Virus record (IMG/VR): IMGVR_UViG_3300018080_000020
Coordinates: 1-64,000 of that record
Length of the DNA stretch: 64,000 nucleotides
Source: a virus
Reading direction: 5' to 3' (one strand)
Positions 2,976 to 8,806 of this stretch are shown in pieces. Positions within the stretch are counted from its first letter, which is position 1. Each line of letters starts with the position of its first letter. The position numbers and the translations under genes are program-made. Under the pieces are notes generated by a model, which had not been told where the DNA came from, made no database searches, and saw only the letters and a program-made list of their open reading frames with translations.

Positions 2976-3668
2976 TTAGTTTTTAGGCAGGTTAGCTACT
3001 GAAGGGAACACAGGCCCAATCTGTTGGTAAAACGTTCCATCAGTTCCAAAGTCTACACCACCGTCTGTGTCACCAAATGTAACAGCAGCAGATGCAGCAT
3101 CATTAGCATAGTCAATCCAGCCAACAACACAGTAGACTGATGGATCAAAGTAAGGCACATCAGGTGTAGGTGCTGTACCGATAGCAGTATCGTCAGACGC
3201 TCTCCAAACACCAAGAGTGCCATCAGCATCTGCAGTTACCATAATAAGAATACGGTAATCGTCTGCAAGTTCTTGTCCAGCCAAGTTAGGTAGTGCTTGC
3301 CAGTTAGAGTCACCGTCAGTAGGCTTTGTGTTCTCTGTTGATGTGTGTGCTACCAAGCACTTCCAGTACTTAACGCTTGAAGATGCTGCTGTACCAGTAT
3401 ATACAGTAGTATCGGCTGAGTAAGCTGTACCAGCAGCCCATGCTGTCGTAATTTCGTCTGATGTAATCAGAAGCTCAGCATCAGCAGTAAGTGCCGGAAT
3501 GTACACACCATTGATTACACATGACGCTGTACCAGTTGACTGAATGTTGTAGACGTTAGTACCATCTACAGCAATAGTCTGTGTTGCCATGTTGTACGTA
3601 GTCATGAACGCAGCAAGGTGTTTCATGTGTACGTGTGAGAATTTACTTCCCCAATTGTTAGTTGCCAT
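2976..3668 (-). CDS. Virion protein with carbohydrate-binding-like insert
   Basis: 230 aa, start ATG with AAAGGAG upstream. The framework matches the 174-aa neighbour (VINGVYIPALT; FDPSVYCV; GPVFPSVANLP). Between about residues 73 and 128 it carries an extra segment with W.AGTAYS.DT.VY, YWKCLVAHTST and a final W, the usual pattern of CBM5/12-type carbohydrate-binding modules. That makes host-surface binding plausible. First virion gene after the tRNA array. Confidence 0.65.
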   Translation of the reverse strand: MATNNWGSKFSHVHMKHLAAFMTTYNMATQTIAVDGTNVYNIQSTGTASCVINGVYIPALTADAELLITSDEITTAWAAGTAYSADTTVYTGTAASSSVKYWKCLVAHTSTENTKPTDGDSNWQALPNLAGQELADDYRILIMVTADADGTLGVWRASDDTAIGTAPTPDVPYFDPSVYCVVGWIDYANDAASAAVTFGDTDGGVDFGTDGTFYQQIGPVFPSVANLPKN

Positions 3669-3746: not shown

Positions 3747-3826
3747 TGGTAGCCTTGAGGGGAATTGAACCCCTGTCCATGGATTGAAAGTCCATGCACT
3801 TTATGCCAGTTAAGTTGTACAAGGCC
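3747..3826 (-). tRNA. tRNA-Glu (TTC)
   Basis: Minus-strand cloverleaf; the anticodon stem ATGGA/TCCAT encloses CTTTCAA, giving TTC (reads GAA). CCA is encoded. Only 2 nt separate it from tRNA-Cys, which suggests one polycistronic tRNA transcript. Confidence 0.93.
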
Positions 3827-3828
3827 AT

Positions 3829-3902
3829 TGGAAGCCGTGTTGGGAATTGAACCCAAAACAGACGGTGTTGCAGACCGTAGCCAACCCAGTTGGATCACGG
3901 CT
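3829..3902 (-). tRNA. tRNA-Cys (GCA)
   Basis: Acceptor AGCCGTG/CACGGCT, anticodon stem ACGGT/ACCGT enclosing CTGCAAC, anticodon GCA. CCA encoded. Confidence 0.93.
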
Positions 3903-3926
3903 ATGTGGAGGCCCCGAAGGGCCGTA

Positions 3927-4001
3927 TGGTAGCCCCGGTAAGAATCGAACTTACTTCAAACACCTTGTAAGGATGTCATCCATCCATAGGATCTCAGGGC
4001 T
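3927..4001 (-). tRNA. tRNA-Val (TAC)
   Basis: Acceptor AGCCCTG/CGGGGCT with one T-G pair, anticodon loop CTTACAA giving TAC (reads GTA). CCA encoded. Confidence 0.92.
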
Positions 4002-4003
4002 GT

Positions 4004-4077
4004 TGGTAGTCCAGAATGGATTTGAACCATTTTCTGAGCCTTATAAGGACTCTGCTCTACCATTGAGCTACTGGACG
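4004..4077 (-). tRNA. tRNA-Ile (TAT), reads ATA
   Basis: Anticodon stem GAGTC/GGCTC encloses CTTATAA, so the anticodon is TAT and it reads the rare codon ATA directly, unlike the usual bacterial lysidine-modified CAT tRNA. The first acceptor pair is a C1-T72 mismatch. CCA encoded. Confidence 0.88.
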
Positions 4078-4080
4078 TTA

Positions 4081-4159
4081 TGGTTGAGAGGGAAGGATTT
4101 GAACCTTCGCATACTTAGGATTTCACCCTAAAGCTACTACCAGACTGAGCTACCTCTCA
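4081..4159 (-). tRNA. tRNA-Phe (GAA)
   Basis: Acceptor TGAGAGG/CCTCTCA, anticodon stem TTAGG/CCTAA enclosing GTGAAAT, anticodon GAA. CCA encoded at the end. Confidence 0.9.
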
Positions 4160-4165
4160 ATATTG

Positions 4166-4255
4166 TGGAGGAAGGTGAGGGATTTGAACCCCCATGGCTG
4201 TTACACCAATGCTGTTTTCAAAACAGGTAGACTGTTCCCCACTGTCAAACCTTCC
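4166..4255 (-). tRNA. tRNA-Ser (TGA)
   Basis: Class II tRNA with a long variable arm. Acceptor GGAAGGT/ACCTTCC, anticodon loop TTTGAAA giving TGA (reads TCA). Its 5' end overlaps by 11 nt the 3' end of the HNH endonuclease gene. Confidence 0.9.
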
Positions 4256-4601
4256 CAAGCTCTTCATGTATCTCGCAGTGACAGTTTGCACATACTAAGA
4301 TACATTTTTCAGCTTCTTTTAATGCTGCTTTAAAGGACTTATTATAAAGTAAAGTAAAAACATTCCCCTCTTTTTTTGTTGGATTTGTATGGTGGAATTG
4401 TAAAGTTGGCAAAGAATCATACCCACATTTTATACACTTACCACCAAACTGTTTTACAAGTTTATTTTTCTTATGTATCCTATTAGCCTTTCTTTTCTCT
4501 CTATAACAAGCCAAGCATCTATAAGAATTATTTCGTCCTTTCCTTTTCCGGTGAACCGTAAGACCGTGTTTAGGACACTCACGTTCCTCATAACGTGCCA
4601 T
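4245..4601 (-). CDS. HNH homing endonuclease-like protein
   Basis: 118 aa. The start is ATG 4601-4599 because AGGAGG sits 6 nt upstream; an earlier in-frame ATG would place that site inside the gene. The protein is basic, with two Cys pairs (C..C near residues 33-36 and CIKCG near 56-60), a LQFHHTNP segment and CANCHCEIH at the C-terminus, the His-Me-finger HNH layout with zinc-binding cysteines. It sits between two tRNA-Ser genes, the stop codon lying inside the next tRNA, which fits a mobile nicking endonuclease inserted in the tRNA array. An operator-like palindrome is just upstream. Confidence 0.85.
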   Translation of the reverse strand: MARYEERECPKHGLTVHRKRKGRNNSYRCLACYREKRKANRIHKKNKLVKQFGGKCIKCGYDSLPTLQFHHTNPTKKEGNVFTLLYNKSFKAALKEAEKCILVCANCHCEIHEELGKV

Positions 4602-4620
4602 TGATTCCCTCCTGTTAATA

Positions 4621-4636
4621 TTCACTTGTGAGTCAA
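4621..4636. promoter_or_regulatory. Operator-like palindrome (site a)
   Basis: TTCACTTGTGAGTCAA; the reverse strand reads TTGACTCACAAGTGAA. One copy of the recurring TGACTCAnAAGTGA motif, 20 nt upstream of the HNH gene start on the minus strand. Confidence 0.6.
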
Positions 4637-4656
4637 TTTAAAGAAAAAAAAAAATT

Positions 4657-4743
4657 TGGCGATAGGTGCTGGATTCGAACCAGCAGAGCTTGTTAGACTC
4701 TACAGGTTAGCAACCTGCTGCATTACCATTCTGCCAACCTACC
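4657..4743 (-). tRNA. tRNA-Ser (GCT)
   Basis: Class II tRNA with long variable arm. Acceptor GGTAGGT/ACCTATC, anticodon loop TTGCTAA giving GCT (reads AGC), discriminator G, CCA encoded. It overlaps the stop codon of the 74-aa gene and is followed on the minus strand by a T-rich run. Confidence 0.92.
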
Positions 4744-4963
4744 GTGTATATTTTTCATATAAGTCCATAATCTCGTCTGTCAATGTATACCTATCATGAT
4801 ACTTATTTAGGACAACGTTGAAGCACTCACACGCATATAAAAGGAGTTCTTCAACGGTCATCGAGTTAAGTTGCTCATACTCGTCAAAGTGAGCGTCCAT
4901 ACATCGATCACACGAACAGTCTTCATCATGAAAACACCTGAATAGAATCTCTCTATCTATCAT
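4739..4963 (-). CDS. Small cysteine-containing protein
   Basis: 74 aa, ATG with AAGGGGAG 4 nt upstream. Acidic, largely helical by composition, with CSCDRC near residues 17-22. Its stop codon TAG lies inside the 5' end of tRNA-Ser(GCT), so both cannot be mature from one transcript. I do not recognise the family. Confidence 0.6.
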   Translation of the reverse strand: MIDREILFRCFHDEDCSCDRCMDAHFDEYEQLNSMTVEELLLYACECFNVVLNKYHDRYTLTDEIMDLYEKYTR

Positions 4964-4986
4964 ATAACTCCCCTTTATACGTTATT

Positions 4987-5060
4987 TGGTAGTTCCAAAT
5001 GGGATCGAACCATTATCTAACGATTATCGGTCGTTTGCTCTACCTTTGAGCTATGGAACT
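4987..5060 (-). tRNA. tRNA-Ile (GAT)
   Basis: Acceptor AGTTCCA/TGGAACT, anticodon loop CCGATAA giving GAT (reads ATC/ATT). CCA encoded. Confidence 0.94.
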
Positions 5061-5061
5061 A

Positions 5062-5139
5062 TGGAACCCCTGAGAGGATTCGAACCTCCATAATTTTACG
5101 GCTTAGAAGACCGTTGCCATTCCGTTTGACTACAGGGGC
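5062..5139 (-). tRNA. tRNA-Arg (TCT)
   Basis: Acceptor GCCCCTG/CAGGGGT, anticodon stem ACGGT/GCCGT enclosing CTTCTAA, anticodon TCT (reads AGA). CCA encoded; 1 nt from tRNA-Ile(GAT). Confidence 0.92.
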
Positions 5140-5142
5140 TTA

Positions 5143-5218
5143 TGGACTCGCAGGTGAGATTCGAACTCACATGTTGCTTGGTTCGTAGCCAAGTGCCTGT
5201 CCGTTAGACTACTGCGAG
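5143..5218 (-). tRNA. tRNA-Arg (ACG)
   Basis: Acceptor CTCGCAG/CTGCGAG, anticodon loop CTACGAA giving ACG (reads CGN family by A-to-I editing). CCA encoded. Confidence 0.92.
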
Positions 5219-5220
5219 TC

Positions 5221-5294
5221 TGGTAGGCCGTAAAGGAATCGAACCTTTGTAGAATGGTTAAAAGCCACTTATTCTGCCATTGAATTAACGACCT
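5221..5294 (-). tRNA. tRNA-Lys (TTT)
   Basis: Acceptor AGGTCGT/ACGGCCT, anticodon loop CTTTTAA giving TTT (reads AAA/AAG). CCA encoded. Confidence 0.93.
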
Positions 5295-5299
5295 AAAGA

Positions 5300-5374
5300 T
5301 GGCTGCAACGGTAGGGGTCGAACCTACATCTTTCCGGTTAACAGCCGGACGCTTTACCATTAAGCTACACTGCA
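5300..5374 (-). tRNA. tRNA-Asn (GTT)
   Basis: Acceptor TGCAGTG/CGTTGCA with wobble pairs, anticodon stem CCGG/CCGG enclosing CTGTTAA, anticodon GTT. Discriminator G, CCA encoded. Confidence 0.93.
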
Positions 5375-5379
5375 GTGTT

Positions 5380-5452
5380 TGGTTGCAGGGGTTGGAGTCG
5401 AACCAACGGAGGCGAGCTTATGAGACTCACGTGAATACCCATTCTCCCTGCC
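5380..5452 (-). tRNA. tRNA-Met or Ile2 (CAT), atypical D arm
   Basis: Anticodon loop CTCATAA gives CAT. The acceptor has a G1-A72 mismatch, the D arm seems reduced to GAAT/ATTC with a 4-nt loop, and the anticodon stem has two T-G pairs and no GGG/CCC, so it is unlikely to be a normal initiator. It could be elongator Met or a lysidine-type Ile tRNA. CCA encoded. Confidence 0.75.
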
Positions 5453-5456
5453 ATAC

Positions 5457-5530
5457 TGGAAGCCCAGACTGGAATTGAACCAGTGTCACGTGATTCAAAG
5501 TCACGTAGCCATCCATTAGCTTACTGGGCA
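5457..5530 (-). tRNA. tRNA-Gln (TTG)
   Basis: Acceptor helix GCCCAG/CTGGGC with an unpaired T1-T72; a weak first pair is usual in bacterial tRNA-Gln. Anticodon loop CTTTGAA gives TTG (reads CAA). CCA encoded. Overlaps the 3' end of the 76-aa gene by 10 nt. Confidence 0.9.
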
Positions 5531-5751
5531 TTATGTCTTCTTTTTACAAAGTCTTCAATATCCGCATGAAAAATATCCGGGTAGTCCTGTGCCCATCGAA
5601 TAGCTGCCTCTCTAAGAGGCTTGCAAGGCCACCTGTATCTATCCTTGATATTACCAGCAAACTCACGTCTGTACCCATGGTACGCAATATACATTAGTTC
5701 CCGGTCATCTAACTCATGTGCCGGGTGCATTGGATCTGCAAAGCTCATCAT
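5521..5751 (-). CDS. Small conserved-type phage protein
   Basis: 76 aa. Its ATG overlaps the stop of the upstream lipoprotein gene (TAATG), so the two are translationally coupled. Basic and aromatic-rich with a YHGYRREF segment. The stop TAA is inside tRNA-Gln. I do not recognise a family. Confidence 0.65.
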   Translation of the reverse strand: MMSFADPMHPAHELDDRELMYIAYHGYRREFAGNIKDRYRWPCKPLREAAIRWAQDYPDIFHADIEDFVKRRHNAQ

Positions 5752-6200
5752 TATTGAAACATCCCCAAGAGAGCCTTTTGCTGCTTAATGTGCTTACGCA
5801 GTAGCCCAATGTCAAAATCGTTGATTGACATTTCGATGCCCTGAAACTGAGTGAACGTTTCTGTTAACAGTATGAGCTCTACCGAATAGCTGTTGTTCAA
5901 GTACCCAGTAACCAGCATAATGTAGTTTGTAAGCTCATTATACGATACAGACTCAAGCATACTCTCTACAGAATCAAGGAATGCTAAACACTCAGCCTTT
6001 GTGATAGCATCAGACTTGATTAGCTCTACGTTTATAAGCTTAAACATCAAGTTCAACTGCTCAGGACTCGTATGCATTGTGTCGCATACCTTACAGATAA
6101 CACTATTATCTGCCTCAGGTGTTGCACATATCTGGCTTGTTGCACAACCGGACAACAGGAACAGAAAAGCAACACAACCAGTTAAAAGTTTCTTGAACAT
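5751..6200 (-). CDS. Putative lipoprotein
   Basis: 149 aa. The start is ATG 6200-6198, which has AAGGAGG 9 nt upstream and begins a classical lipoprotein signal peptide (MFKKLLTGCVAFLFLLSGC, lipobox LSGC); an earlier ATG lacks a ribosome-binding site. The mature part is helical with no catalytic motif. It could be an outer-membrane lipoprotein for superinfection exclusion or a spanin-like part; this is inference. It is embedded in the tRNA array. Confidence 0.75.
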   Translation of the reverse strand: MFKKLLTGCVAFLFLLSGCATSQICATPEADNSVICKVCDTMHTSPEQLNLMFKLINVELIKSDAITKAECLAFLDSVESMLESVSYNELTNYIMLVTGYLNNSYSVELILLTETFTQFQGIEMSINDFDIGLLRKHIKQQKALLGMFQ

Positions 6201-6329
6201 TTTGGTATGCCTCCTTTTATATTGAGAACAACAAGTACCATTCCAGTGTATATTTTTGTCAGGTAATTTTAGTGTCACTAAGTTATCCCTCAACCATCCT
6301 CAACACACCTTAGTTCTCAAAATATTTAT

Positions 6330-6404
6330 TGGGGTGATCGGTCAGAGTCGAACTGACGTTAGAGGGGTCACAGTCCTCAGCGTTACCGTTACGCCACGAC
6401 CACC
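6330..6404 (-). tRNA. tRNA-His (GTG)
   Basis: Acceptor GTGGTCG/CGATCAC with discriminator C73 and an encoded G at position -1 (6404), the identity elements of tRNA-His. Anticodon loop CTGTGAC gives GTG. CCA encoded. Confidence 0.95.
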
Positions 6405-6414
6405 ATAAGTTGTT

Positions 6415-6489
6415 TGGTGGAGGCAGGAGATTCGAACTCCATCTTCTTAGGTGCAAACCAAGTGCTCTCCCGGGTTGAGCTATACCCCC
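6415..6489 (-). tRNA. tRNA-Ala (TGC)
   Basis: Acceptor GGGGGTA/TGCCTCC, anticodon loop TTTGCAC giving TGC (reads GCA). CCA encoded. Confidence 0.92.
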
Positions 6490-6496
6490 ACATGTA

Positions 6497-6520
6497 CCAG
6501 AAGGCTACATTTGCTTCTGG
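6497..6520. other. Hairpin in tRNA spacer
   Basis: CCAGAAG (6497-6503) pairs with CTTCTGG (6514-6520). On the plus strand it is followed by ATTTTTT and so looks like a terminator, but no plus-strand gene precedes it. In the minus-strand tRNA transcript it would be a spacer stem-loop. Role unclear. Confidence 0.35.
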
Positions 6521-6532
6521 ATTTTTTATTAT

Positions 6533-6607
6533 TGGCGATCTGTACCGGACTTGAACCGATAGCTTCTGGGAGACAACCAGATATGTTACCATTGACACCA
6601 ACAGACC
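6533..6607 (-). tRNA. tRNA-Asp (GTC)
   Basis: Acceptor GGTCTGT/ACAGATC, anticodon stem TCTGG/CCAGA enclosing TTGTCTC, anticodon GTC. Discriminator G, CCA encoded. Confidence 0.93.
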
Positions 6608-6608
6608 G

Positions 6609-6682
6609 TGGTCAGAGATGCTGGAATCGAACCAACCACACCACCCTTCCAAGGGGCAGCAGACACCTTGCCGTTATCTCTG
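6609..6682 (-). tRNA. tRNA-Pro (TGG)
   Basis: Acceptor CAGAGAT/ATCTCTG, anticodon loop CTTGGAA giving TGG (reads CCA). CCA tail encoded; 1 nt from tRNA-Asp. Confidence 0.92.
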
Positions 6683-6683
6683 A

Positions 6684-6760
6684 TGGTAGCCAAGGAGAGA
6701 TTCGAACTCTCATCTAATCGGGTTTAAGCCGATCAAGTCTGCCGATTGCATCACTTGGCT
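6684..6760 (-). tRNA. tRNA-Leu (TAA), short variable arm
   Basis: Acceptor AGCCAAG/CTTGGCT, anticodon stem ATCGG/CCGAT enclosing CTTAAAC, anticodon TAA (reads TTA). The D region resembles tRNA-Leu, but only 5 nt (TAGAT) separate anticodon and T stems, where bacterial tRNA-Leu has a long variable arm. Confidence 0.88.
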
Positions 6761-6763
6761 ACA

Positions 6764-6840
6764 TGGTAGCGGATCTGGGAGTCGAACCCAGAGCATCTTG
6801 ATTTTGAATCAAGCACGTCTGCCAGTTGCGCCAATCCGCT
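6764..6840 (-). tRNA. tRNA-Leu (CAA), short variable arm
   Basis: Acceptor AGCGGAT/ATCCGCT, anticodon stem CTTGA/TCAAG enclosing TTCAAAA, anticodon CAA (reads TTG). Variable region only ATGCT (5 nt), again without the class II arm. CCA encoded. Confidence 0.88.
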
Positions 6841-6846
6841 AAAGTT

Positions 6847-6924
6847 TGGTAGCCACTCAGGGATTCGAACCCTGACTGATATGGTTCTAAGCCATACGCC
6901 TCTGCCAAGTTGGGCTAAGTGGCT
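6847..6924 (-). tRNA. tRNA-Leu (TAG), short variable arm
   Basis: Acceptor AGCCACT/AGTGGCT, anticodon stem TATGG/CCATA enclosing CTTAGAA, anticodon TAG (reads CTA). Variable region only TCAGT (5 nt). It is the third Leu tRNA in a row with this form. Its 5' end overlaps the stop of the 96-aa gene by 2 nt. Confidence 0.88.
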
Positions 6925-7213
6925 ATATTCTTCTAAACATATCGATAACAGTGCTTGGATCATTGGTTGGTGTAACAGAATCACCGTTCAAGAATCTCAC
7001 TAACTCATCAAGCATTACCCTGAAGGCTACAAGCTGCGATCTTATATCTGTTGATGGAACACCGATAGCGTCCAGATCTGCAGTGTCCATTCGCTGTAAG
7101 AATTCTGACAGGTCACTTAGCCTGTTAACCATCCTGTTAAGATCCGTAGCTACACTTTGAATTACACTGTATAAAGTACTTTTACTTGGAATTTGTGCAT
7201 CGTTTAACGCCAT
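6923..7213 (-). CDS. Small protein within tRNA array
   Basis: 96 aa, ATG with AAAGGAG 5 nt upstream. Mostly helical, acidic-basic balanced, with a Leu/Val heptad-like stretch (about 25-80) that could form a coiled coil. No motif recognised. The TAG stop overlaps tRNA-Leu(TAG). Confidence 0.65.
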   Translation of the reverse strand: MALNDAQIPSKSTLYSVIQSVATDLNRMVNRLSDLSEFLQRMDTADLDAIGVPSTDIRSQLVAFRVMLDELVRFLNGDSVTPTNDPSTVIDMFRRI

Positions 7214-7286
7214 TACTGCTCCTTTAAATTAGTTAGTCTGTACTTATCCCTACATTGTATTATACAAAACAGTATAATTTTTTGTA

Positions 7287-7370
7287 TGGTGGGTCAGGAT
7301 GGAGTTGAACCATCACAGCCCGGGGGCCACAGATTTACAGTCTGCTTATCTCGCCAATGAATGCCGACCC
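7287..7370 (-). tRNA. tRNA-Tyr (GTA)
   Basis: Class II tRNA with a GC-rich variable arm. Acceptor GGGTCGG/CTGACCC, anticodon loop CTGTAAA giving GTA. CCA encoded. It shows that the phage retains long variable arms where expected (Tyr, Ser). Confidence 0.93.
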
Positions 7371-7384
7371 ATAAAGTGGCTTGT

Positions 7385-7614
7385 TTGGTTATAGAGGCAC
7401 AAGCCAATAAGCCTCTCTGTAGCTCTCCCACGGTCAACGCATCGTCCAGTTGCTTATTCCCGGCTCTCTACGTTTGAGATGGTCATAACCGTGTTCTTGA
7501 CCGTATGCTACTAAATTATTTCAGTGGGAGGGGGTTGCTTGAAGTTGGGAATCTTAAGTTACGCTGCGCTGCAGTCCAACTCCCCTCTATCCCATTTTAT
7601 TTTGACCACTGAAA
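7385..7614 (-). ncRNA. Structured non-coding RNA in tRNA array, RNase P-like features
   Basis: No gene fits here, but the minus strand is full of long complementarities: TTTCAGTGG/CCACTGAAA (7519-7527/7606-7614), ATAGAGG/CCTCTAT joining both ends (7391-7397/7584-7590), GAAGTTGG/CCAACTCC (7541-7548/7576-7583), ACGGTCAA/TTGACCGT (7430-7437/7497-7504) and a GTAGC/GCTAC extension. Near the 3' end it reads ACAGAGAGGCTTATTGG, similar to the RNase P RNA CR-V segment ACAGAAnnnGGCTTAT, and it ends in an AACCA. The other RNase P core segments are not convincing by eye. A structured RNA is likely; its class is open. Confidence 0.6.
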
Positions 7615-7617
7615 GCT

Positions 7618-7687
7618 TGGCAGGAAGGTGGGGAATCGAACCCCACTACAGAGTTTTGGAGACTCCGTTGATCCCAGATCCCGACCT
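7618..7687 (-). tRNA. tRNA-Trp (CCA anticodon), degenerate
   Basis: Anticodon stem GGAGT/ACTCT encloses CTCCAAA, giving CCA (reads TGG); T arm TGGGG/CCCCA is canonical and the 3' CCA is encoded. However, only about 14 nt separate acceptor and anticodon stems, so the D arm is truncated, and the acceptor has two mismatches. It may be a decaying or specialised tRNA. Confidence 0.65.
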
Positions 7688-7692
7688 ATATT

Positions 7693-7770
7693 TGGAGCGA
7701 CCTGTGGGAATCGAACCCACGTCCTACAGCTTGGAAGGCTGGCATCTTATCCAGTTAAGACGAAGATCGC
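7693..7770 (-). tRNA. tRNA-Gly (TCC)
   Basis: Acceptor GCGATCT/AGGTCGC, anticodon stem CCAGC/GCTGT enclosing CTTCCAA, anticodon TCC (reads GGA). CCA encoded. First tRNA of the array in transcription order. Confidence 0.93.
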
Positions 7771-8720: not shown

Positions 8721-8763
8721 GTGTACGAGCATATATATTATACATGGAAACGGGGTGACCCTA

Positions 8764-8800
8764 CCCCCCCCGGGGGGTATCCCCCCAAGCCCCCCCCCCC
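8764..8800. repeat. C8-G6 palindrome and C11 homopolymer tract
   Basis: Eight C, six G, TAT, six C, AAG, then eleven C. The minus strand therefore has G11, G6 and G8 runs, able to form a G-quadruplex, and the C/G block forms a hairpin. It contrasts sharply with the AT-rich surroundings. Homopolymer length may be imprecise in the assembly. Confidence 0.6.
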
Positions 8801-8806
8801 ATGTCG

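Follow-up and report, generated by a model that had tools for sequence, protein, structure and literature searches.

We asked whether tRNA genes that carry leucine anticodons and lack the long variable arm can encode working leucine tRNAs. The question is raised by a stretch of viral DNA of 64,000 nucleotides (nt; hereafter, the window), which comprises positions 1 to 64,000 of the 65,938-base IMG/VR virus record IMGVR_UViG_3300018080_000020, and in which all three tRNA-Leu genes have short variable loops. Our analysis argues with good confidence that the products of these genes function as leucine tRNAs and belong to a short-arm (class I) type, which coexists with the long-arm (class II) type in phages and bacteria.

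Three short-arm tRNA-Leu genes

The three genes, called by ARAGORN and matched over their full length by the Rfam tRNA model RF00005 (gathering score, 29), are as follows:

6684..6760, minus strand: tRNA-Leu(UAA), 77 nt, variable loop UAGAU (5 nt), 49.9 bits with RF00005
6764..6840, minus strand: tRNA-Leu(CAA), 77 nt, variable loop AUGCU (5 nt), 55.9 bits with RF00005
6847..6924, minus strand: tRNA-Leu(UAG), 78 nt, variable loop UCAGU (5 nt), 56.8 bits with RF00005

Each gene has an acceptor stem with 7 of 7 pairs and an encoded CCA (single-nucleotide positions such as C13, here and below, are in tRNA numbering). The 5-nt variable loops, which an earlier note on this DNA had pointed out in the TAA, CAA, and TAG tRNA-Leu genes, are confirmed by ARAGORN, by Rfam, and by the numbering. 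All three tRNAs belong to the short-arm type, having a variable loop of 4–7 nt, a Leu anticodon, and a Leu D-loop. They depart from class II both in the length of the variable arm (5 nt, versus at least 10 nt) and at position 13, where all three have C13 and class II tRNAs have G13 or A13 facing A22.

The complete set of A73, A14, A15-U48, G18G19, and A20a is present in all three tRNAs. Accordingly, the claim of the earlier note that a Leu-like D region is retained holds, and the alignment that it proposed, to the identity elements read by leucyl-tRNA synthetase (LeuRS), returns the full published Escherichia coli set in each tRNA. The D stems differ among the three genes. In particular, the D arm of Leu-UAG (UAGCCCAAC..GGCAGAGGC) is a full short-arm D arm of actinobacterial type, while Leu-UAA and Leu-CAA have C13 set on a D stem that is otherwise class II-like, with G9 and G12-C23 as in long-arm tRNA-Leu.

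Recognition by LeuRS and decoding

In E. coli tRNA-Leu, A73 is crucial for LeuRS and the long arm is not, A15-U48, G18G19, and A20a also matter, and activity persists in variants that lack the variable arm (PMC9976931). Human mitochondrial tRNA-Leu(UUR) is leucylated without a long arm, by means of A73 and A14 (PMC9976931). Because seryl-tRNA synthetase (SerRS) requires the long arm and bacterial LeuRS does not (PMC7609411; PMC9976931), tRNA-Leu, unlike tRNA-Ser, is free to drop it. The suggestion of the earlier note that the short loops might alter LeuRS recognition is therefore unsupported: the E. coli elements are all kept, and armless E. coli variants are active (PMC9976931).

Since bacterial LeuRS reads A73 and the core formed by the D-loop, the T-loop, and the 15-48 pair, rather than the long arm, the LeuRS of the host would be expected to charge the window tRNAs with leucine. 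The three anticodons would then decode all six leucine codons, with UAA reading UUA and UUG, CAA reading UUG, and UAG reading CUN by wobble, and an array that supplies 20 amino acids could keep protein synthesis going if host tRNAs run short or are damaged. Charging in the host of this phage, the wobble range, and the benefit to the phage are what we infer from these features.

Short-arm tRNA-Leu in bacteria

We scanned sequence collections with a short-arm pattern that has a fixed spacing from position 8 through the T loop and leaves positions 11–13 free. Among the matches listed, with calls confirmed by ARAGORN, short-arm tRNA-Leu is common both in IMG/VR viral contigs and in one-per-species bacterial genomes. 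The listed bacterial matches are mostly Actinomycetota genes that stand alone on the chromosome and have a UAA or CAA anticodon, and a single tRNA is present at 107 of the 118 short-Leu loci among them. A strict pattern for readers of UUR codons (UUA and UUG) matched at least 15 of 149 genomes in an even draw of Actinomycetota. Short-arm tRNA-Leu is also present in cyanobacterial tRNA arrays, in an Acidobacteria metagenome-assembled genome, and in others. The cyanobacterial arrays contain several short-armed Leu tRNAs and resemble phage arrays.

The complete chromosome of Mycolicibacter MYC123 encodes five Leu tRNAs, two of them short (UAA and CAA) and three long (CAG, GAG, and UAG). No tRNA other than the short Leu-UAA and Leu-CAA reads UUA and UUG in this genome; it follows that the LeuRS of this bacterium must accept short-arm tRNA-Leu as a substrate. 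The generalization of the earlier note that bacterial tRNA-Leu is class II does not survive these observations, since many Actinomycetota chromosomes have short-arm UUR tRNA-Leu, in MYC123 as the sole UUA/UUG readers. Overall, short-arm tRNA-Leu is widespread in viral contigs, in named phages, and in bacterial genomes.

Short-arm tRNA-Leu in viruses and phages

To sample viruses in a manner neutral to arm length, contigs were fetched through a tRNA-Asn pattern. In this sample, tRNA-Leu is short in 17 of 52 cases, tRNA-Ser in 0 of 42, and tRNA-Tyr in 0 of 20. A second sample, fetched with a class-neutral UAA pattern, is mostly long (94 long versus 2 short at the matched site). Because the two samples differ in this way, the frequency of short tRNA-Leu is sampling-dependent, and its measured share in viruses varies with both sub-type and sampling. 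Array size and short-arm tRNA-Leu are not associated (P=0.46).

Among named phages, tRNA-Leu is short in 3 of 3 cases each in Escherichia phage ASO1B, Cronobacter phage S13, and Erwinia phage phiEa21-4, with Ser or Tyr long, and in 2 of 2 cases in the stretch read of Vibrio phage V07. Short tRNA-Leu is also found in phages of Klebsiella, Pseudomonas, Enterococcus, Mycobacterium, Gordonia, and Streptomyces, while Leu-UAG of phage T5 is long, with a 13-nt loop. Leu-UAG of ASO1B (2988-3066 of the stretch read) combines a short arm with a class II-like D arm containing G13, which suggests that it lost its arm separately.

Position 13 and the history of the short arm

Of 318 distinct short Leu tRNAs, 276 have C at position 13, as against 0 of 153 long ones; in sets chosen without regard to loop length, the corresponding figures are 11 of 25 short versus 0 of 127 long. 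These statistics ignore kinship. Position 13 of the 153 long-arm tRNAs is G, A, or T, never C. On a 64-column tree, which bears on descent shared with the actinobacterial genes and in which few branches are supported, the class changes 17 times (61-83 in shuffles), or 40 times when the D arm is left out. The short-arm class thus appears to be clustered yet to have changed repeatedly, with a 64-column resolution that is too low for counting origins.

Alternative explanations

The short loops might have been selected as a means of nuclease evasion, as the earlier note proposed, such that, having lost the variable-arm target of host nucleases, phage tRNA-Leu would outlast a defence by which host tRNA-Leu is destroyed. 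Retron-Eco7 and Septu are known to cut tRNA-Tyr in its variable loop (PMC13096335), and coverage of 20 of 20 amino acids by the window array is as this explanation would have it. So is the carriage of short tRNA-Leu by phages, among those named above, whose own hosts have class II tRNA-Leu. However, tRNA-Tyr, the known target, keeps its long arm in the window, as does tRNA-Ser, and viral Ser and Tyr tRNAs are short in 0 of 62 cases. Moreover, we found no description in the literature of a nuclease that cuts the tRNA-Leu variable arm, short-arm tRNA-Leu is unlinked to larger arrays, and in actinobacteria it is a stand-alone chromosomal gene. We consider nuclease evasion unlikely. Still less probable, in our estimation, is a fuller version in which arm loss in phage-array Leu tRNAs was recurrent and selected, with C13 compensating, under pressure from a putative defence nuclease that recognizes the long arm of host tRNA-Leu.

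Charging with another amino acid at leucine codons has a precedent in yeast mitochondrial tRNA-Thr(UAG). It is compatible with the change of class and with A73, which is common to other tRNAs, but retention of A14, A15-U48, G18G19, A20a, and A73 in all three tRNAs argues against it. So does a comparison of window genes with relatives, in which UUA, UUG, CUU, CUC, CUA, and CUG are each aligned most often to Leu, a result that is partly circular in that BLAST scoring favours L-L matches. Recoding is, in our judgement, highly improbable. The same is true of decay, or of an apparent loss of the arm through sequencing error: Rfam scores are somewhat under those of the best tRNAs of the array, as decay would predict, but the 7 of 7 acceptor pairs, the encoded CCA, and the 5-nt loop common to three genes are not what decay or error would leave, and tRNA-Leu of this form is present in complete genomes of both bacteria and phages. 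Sequencing error, taken separately, is ruled out by three separate genes with equal loop length, intact stems, and CCA, and by hundreds of equivalents elsewhere.

Apart from the circularity of the codon alignment, several points weigh against the reading as working leucine tRNAs. C13.A22 of the window tRNAs is a non-Watson-Crick combination. The RNAfold minimum is cloverleaf-like for the UAA and UAG genes and not for the CAA gene; misfolding in silico is frequent for unmodified tRNAs. The host is assigned by inference, from portal relatives that are mainly proteobacterial phages. Taken together, the evidence makes it most likely that the window tRNAs are ordinary tRNA-Leu whose type has been little discussed.

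Context of the tRNA array

The three genes lie within a tRNA array, further elements of which are listed below:

3750..7770, minus strand: tRNA array (ARAGORN and Rfam), which, with an outlying tRNA-Thr at 100-175, comprises 25 tRNAs for 20 of 20 amino acids
3750-3826, minus strand: tRNA-Glu(UUC), found by Rfam only and missed by ARAGORN, completing the 20-amino-acid set
4166..4255, minus strand: tRNA-Ser(UGA), 90 nt, long variable arm (ARAGORN)
4657..4743, minus strand: tRNA-Ser(GCU), 87 nt, long variable arm (ARAGORN and Rfam)
7287..7370, minus strand: tRNA-Tyr(GUA), 84 nt, long variable arm (ARAGORN and Rfam)

The lengths of the two Ser tRNAs and of the Tyr tRNA bear out the earlier observation that the phage keeps long arms on Ser and Tyr. 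The array also contains a tRNA-Ile with a UAU anticodon (4004-4077, minus strand), besides a tRNA-Ile with GAU; a UAU anticodon can decode AUA with no need for the lysidine modification that a CAU anticodon would require. Long C and G runs (cccccccccggggggtatccccccaagccccccccccc) are present at 8755-8805, in an intergenic position between leftward and rightward gene blocks.

Candidate promoters and terminators in the array were no more numerous than expected by chance, and Pfam identified no tRNA-related enzymes among the 20 window proteins scanned. The portal protein shares ~30-36% identity with those of Roseobacter, Rhizobium, Pelagibacter, Pseudomonas, and Puniceispirillum phages, and the host is likely to be proteobacterial, as judged from sequence. 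No close relative with the same array was found among the portal and ATPase relatives examined, which have few tRNAs and no tRNA-Leu.

Implications and comparison with known systems

These results correct a rule of thumb, in that bacterial tRNA-Leu is not defined by a long arm. The viral sample, in which about one third of Leu tRNAs and no Ser or Tyr tRNAs are short, agrees with a need for the long arm by SerRS and not by bacterial LeuRS. A mycobacterial chromosome in which UUA and UUG are left to short-arm tRNAs alone offers a test, set by nature, of how LeuRS recognizes its tRNAs, and ASO1B, an E. coli phage, brings the short-arm question within reach of experiments in laboratory E. coli strains. 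No literature treating short-arm (class I) tRNA-Leu as a type, its link to C13, or the actinobacterial UUR set was found in a search of partial coverage, and this absence argues weakly for novelty.

Class II bacterial tRNA-Leu (E. coli type, and T5 Leu-UAG) shares A73, A14, A15-U48, G18G19, A20a, a 3-bp D stem, and Leu anticodons with the window tRNAs, but has a long variable arm and G13 or A13. Human mitochondrial tRNA-Leu(UUR) lacks the long arm, as the window tRNAs do; the likeness to this mitochondrial tRNA is by description (PMC9976931). A tRNA-Leu(TAG) with a short variable loop was reported in 2019 in tRNA gene clusters of Mycobacterium mucogenicum/phocaicum (PMC6582537). Like the window genes, it is a cluster-encoded tRNA-Leu with a short loop, but it involves one anticodon in mycobacteria, whereas in the window all three tRNA-Leu are short, in a phage with proteobacterial-phage relatives.

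Felixounavirus ASO1B and Kolesnikvirus phiEa21-4 resemble the window in having tens of tRNAs, with all Leu short and Ser long (and, in ASO1B, Tyr long as well), but they are phages distant from it, and Leu-UAG has G13 in ASO1B and C13 in the window. Chromosomal Leu(UAA/CAA) of Actinomycetota has a 5-nt loop, A15-U48, G18G19, A20a, A73, and C13, all as in the window, and its D arm (UAGCCCAA..GGCAGAGGC) is nearly identical to that of window Leu-UAG. The actinobacterial tRNAs are single chromosomal UUR readers, whereas the window phage adds a short CUN reader and has UAA and CAA tRNAs with G9 and G12-C23 like long-arm tRNA-Leu.
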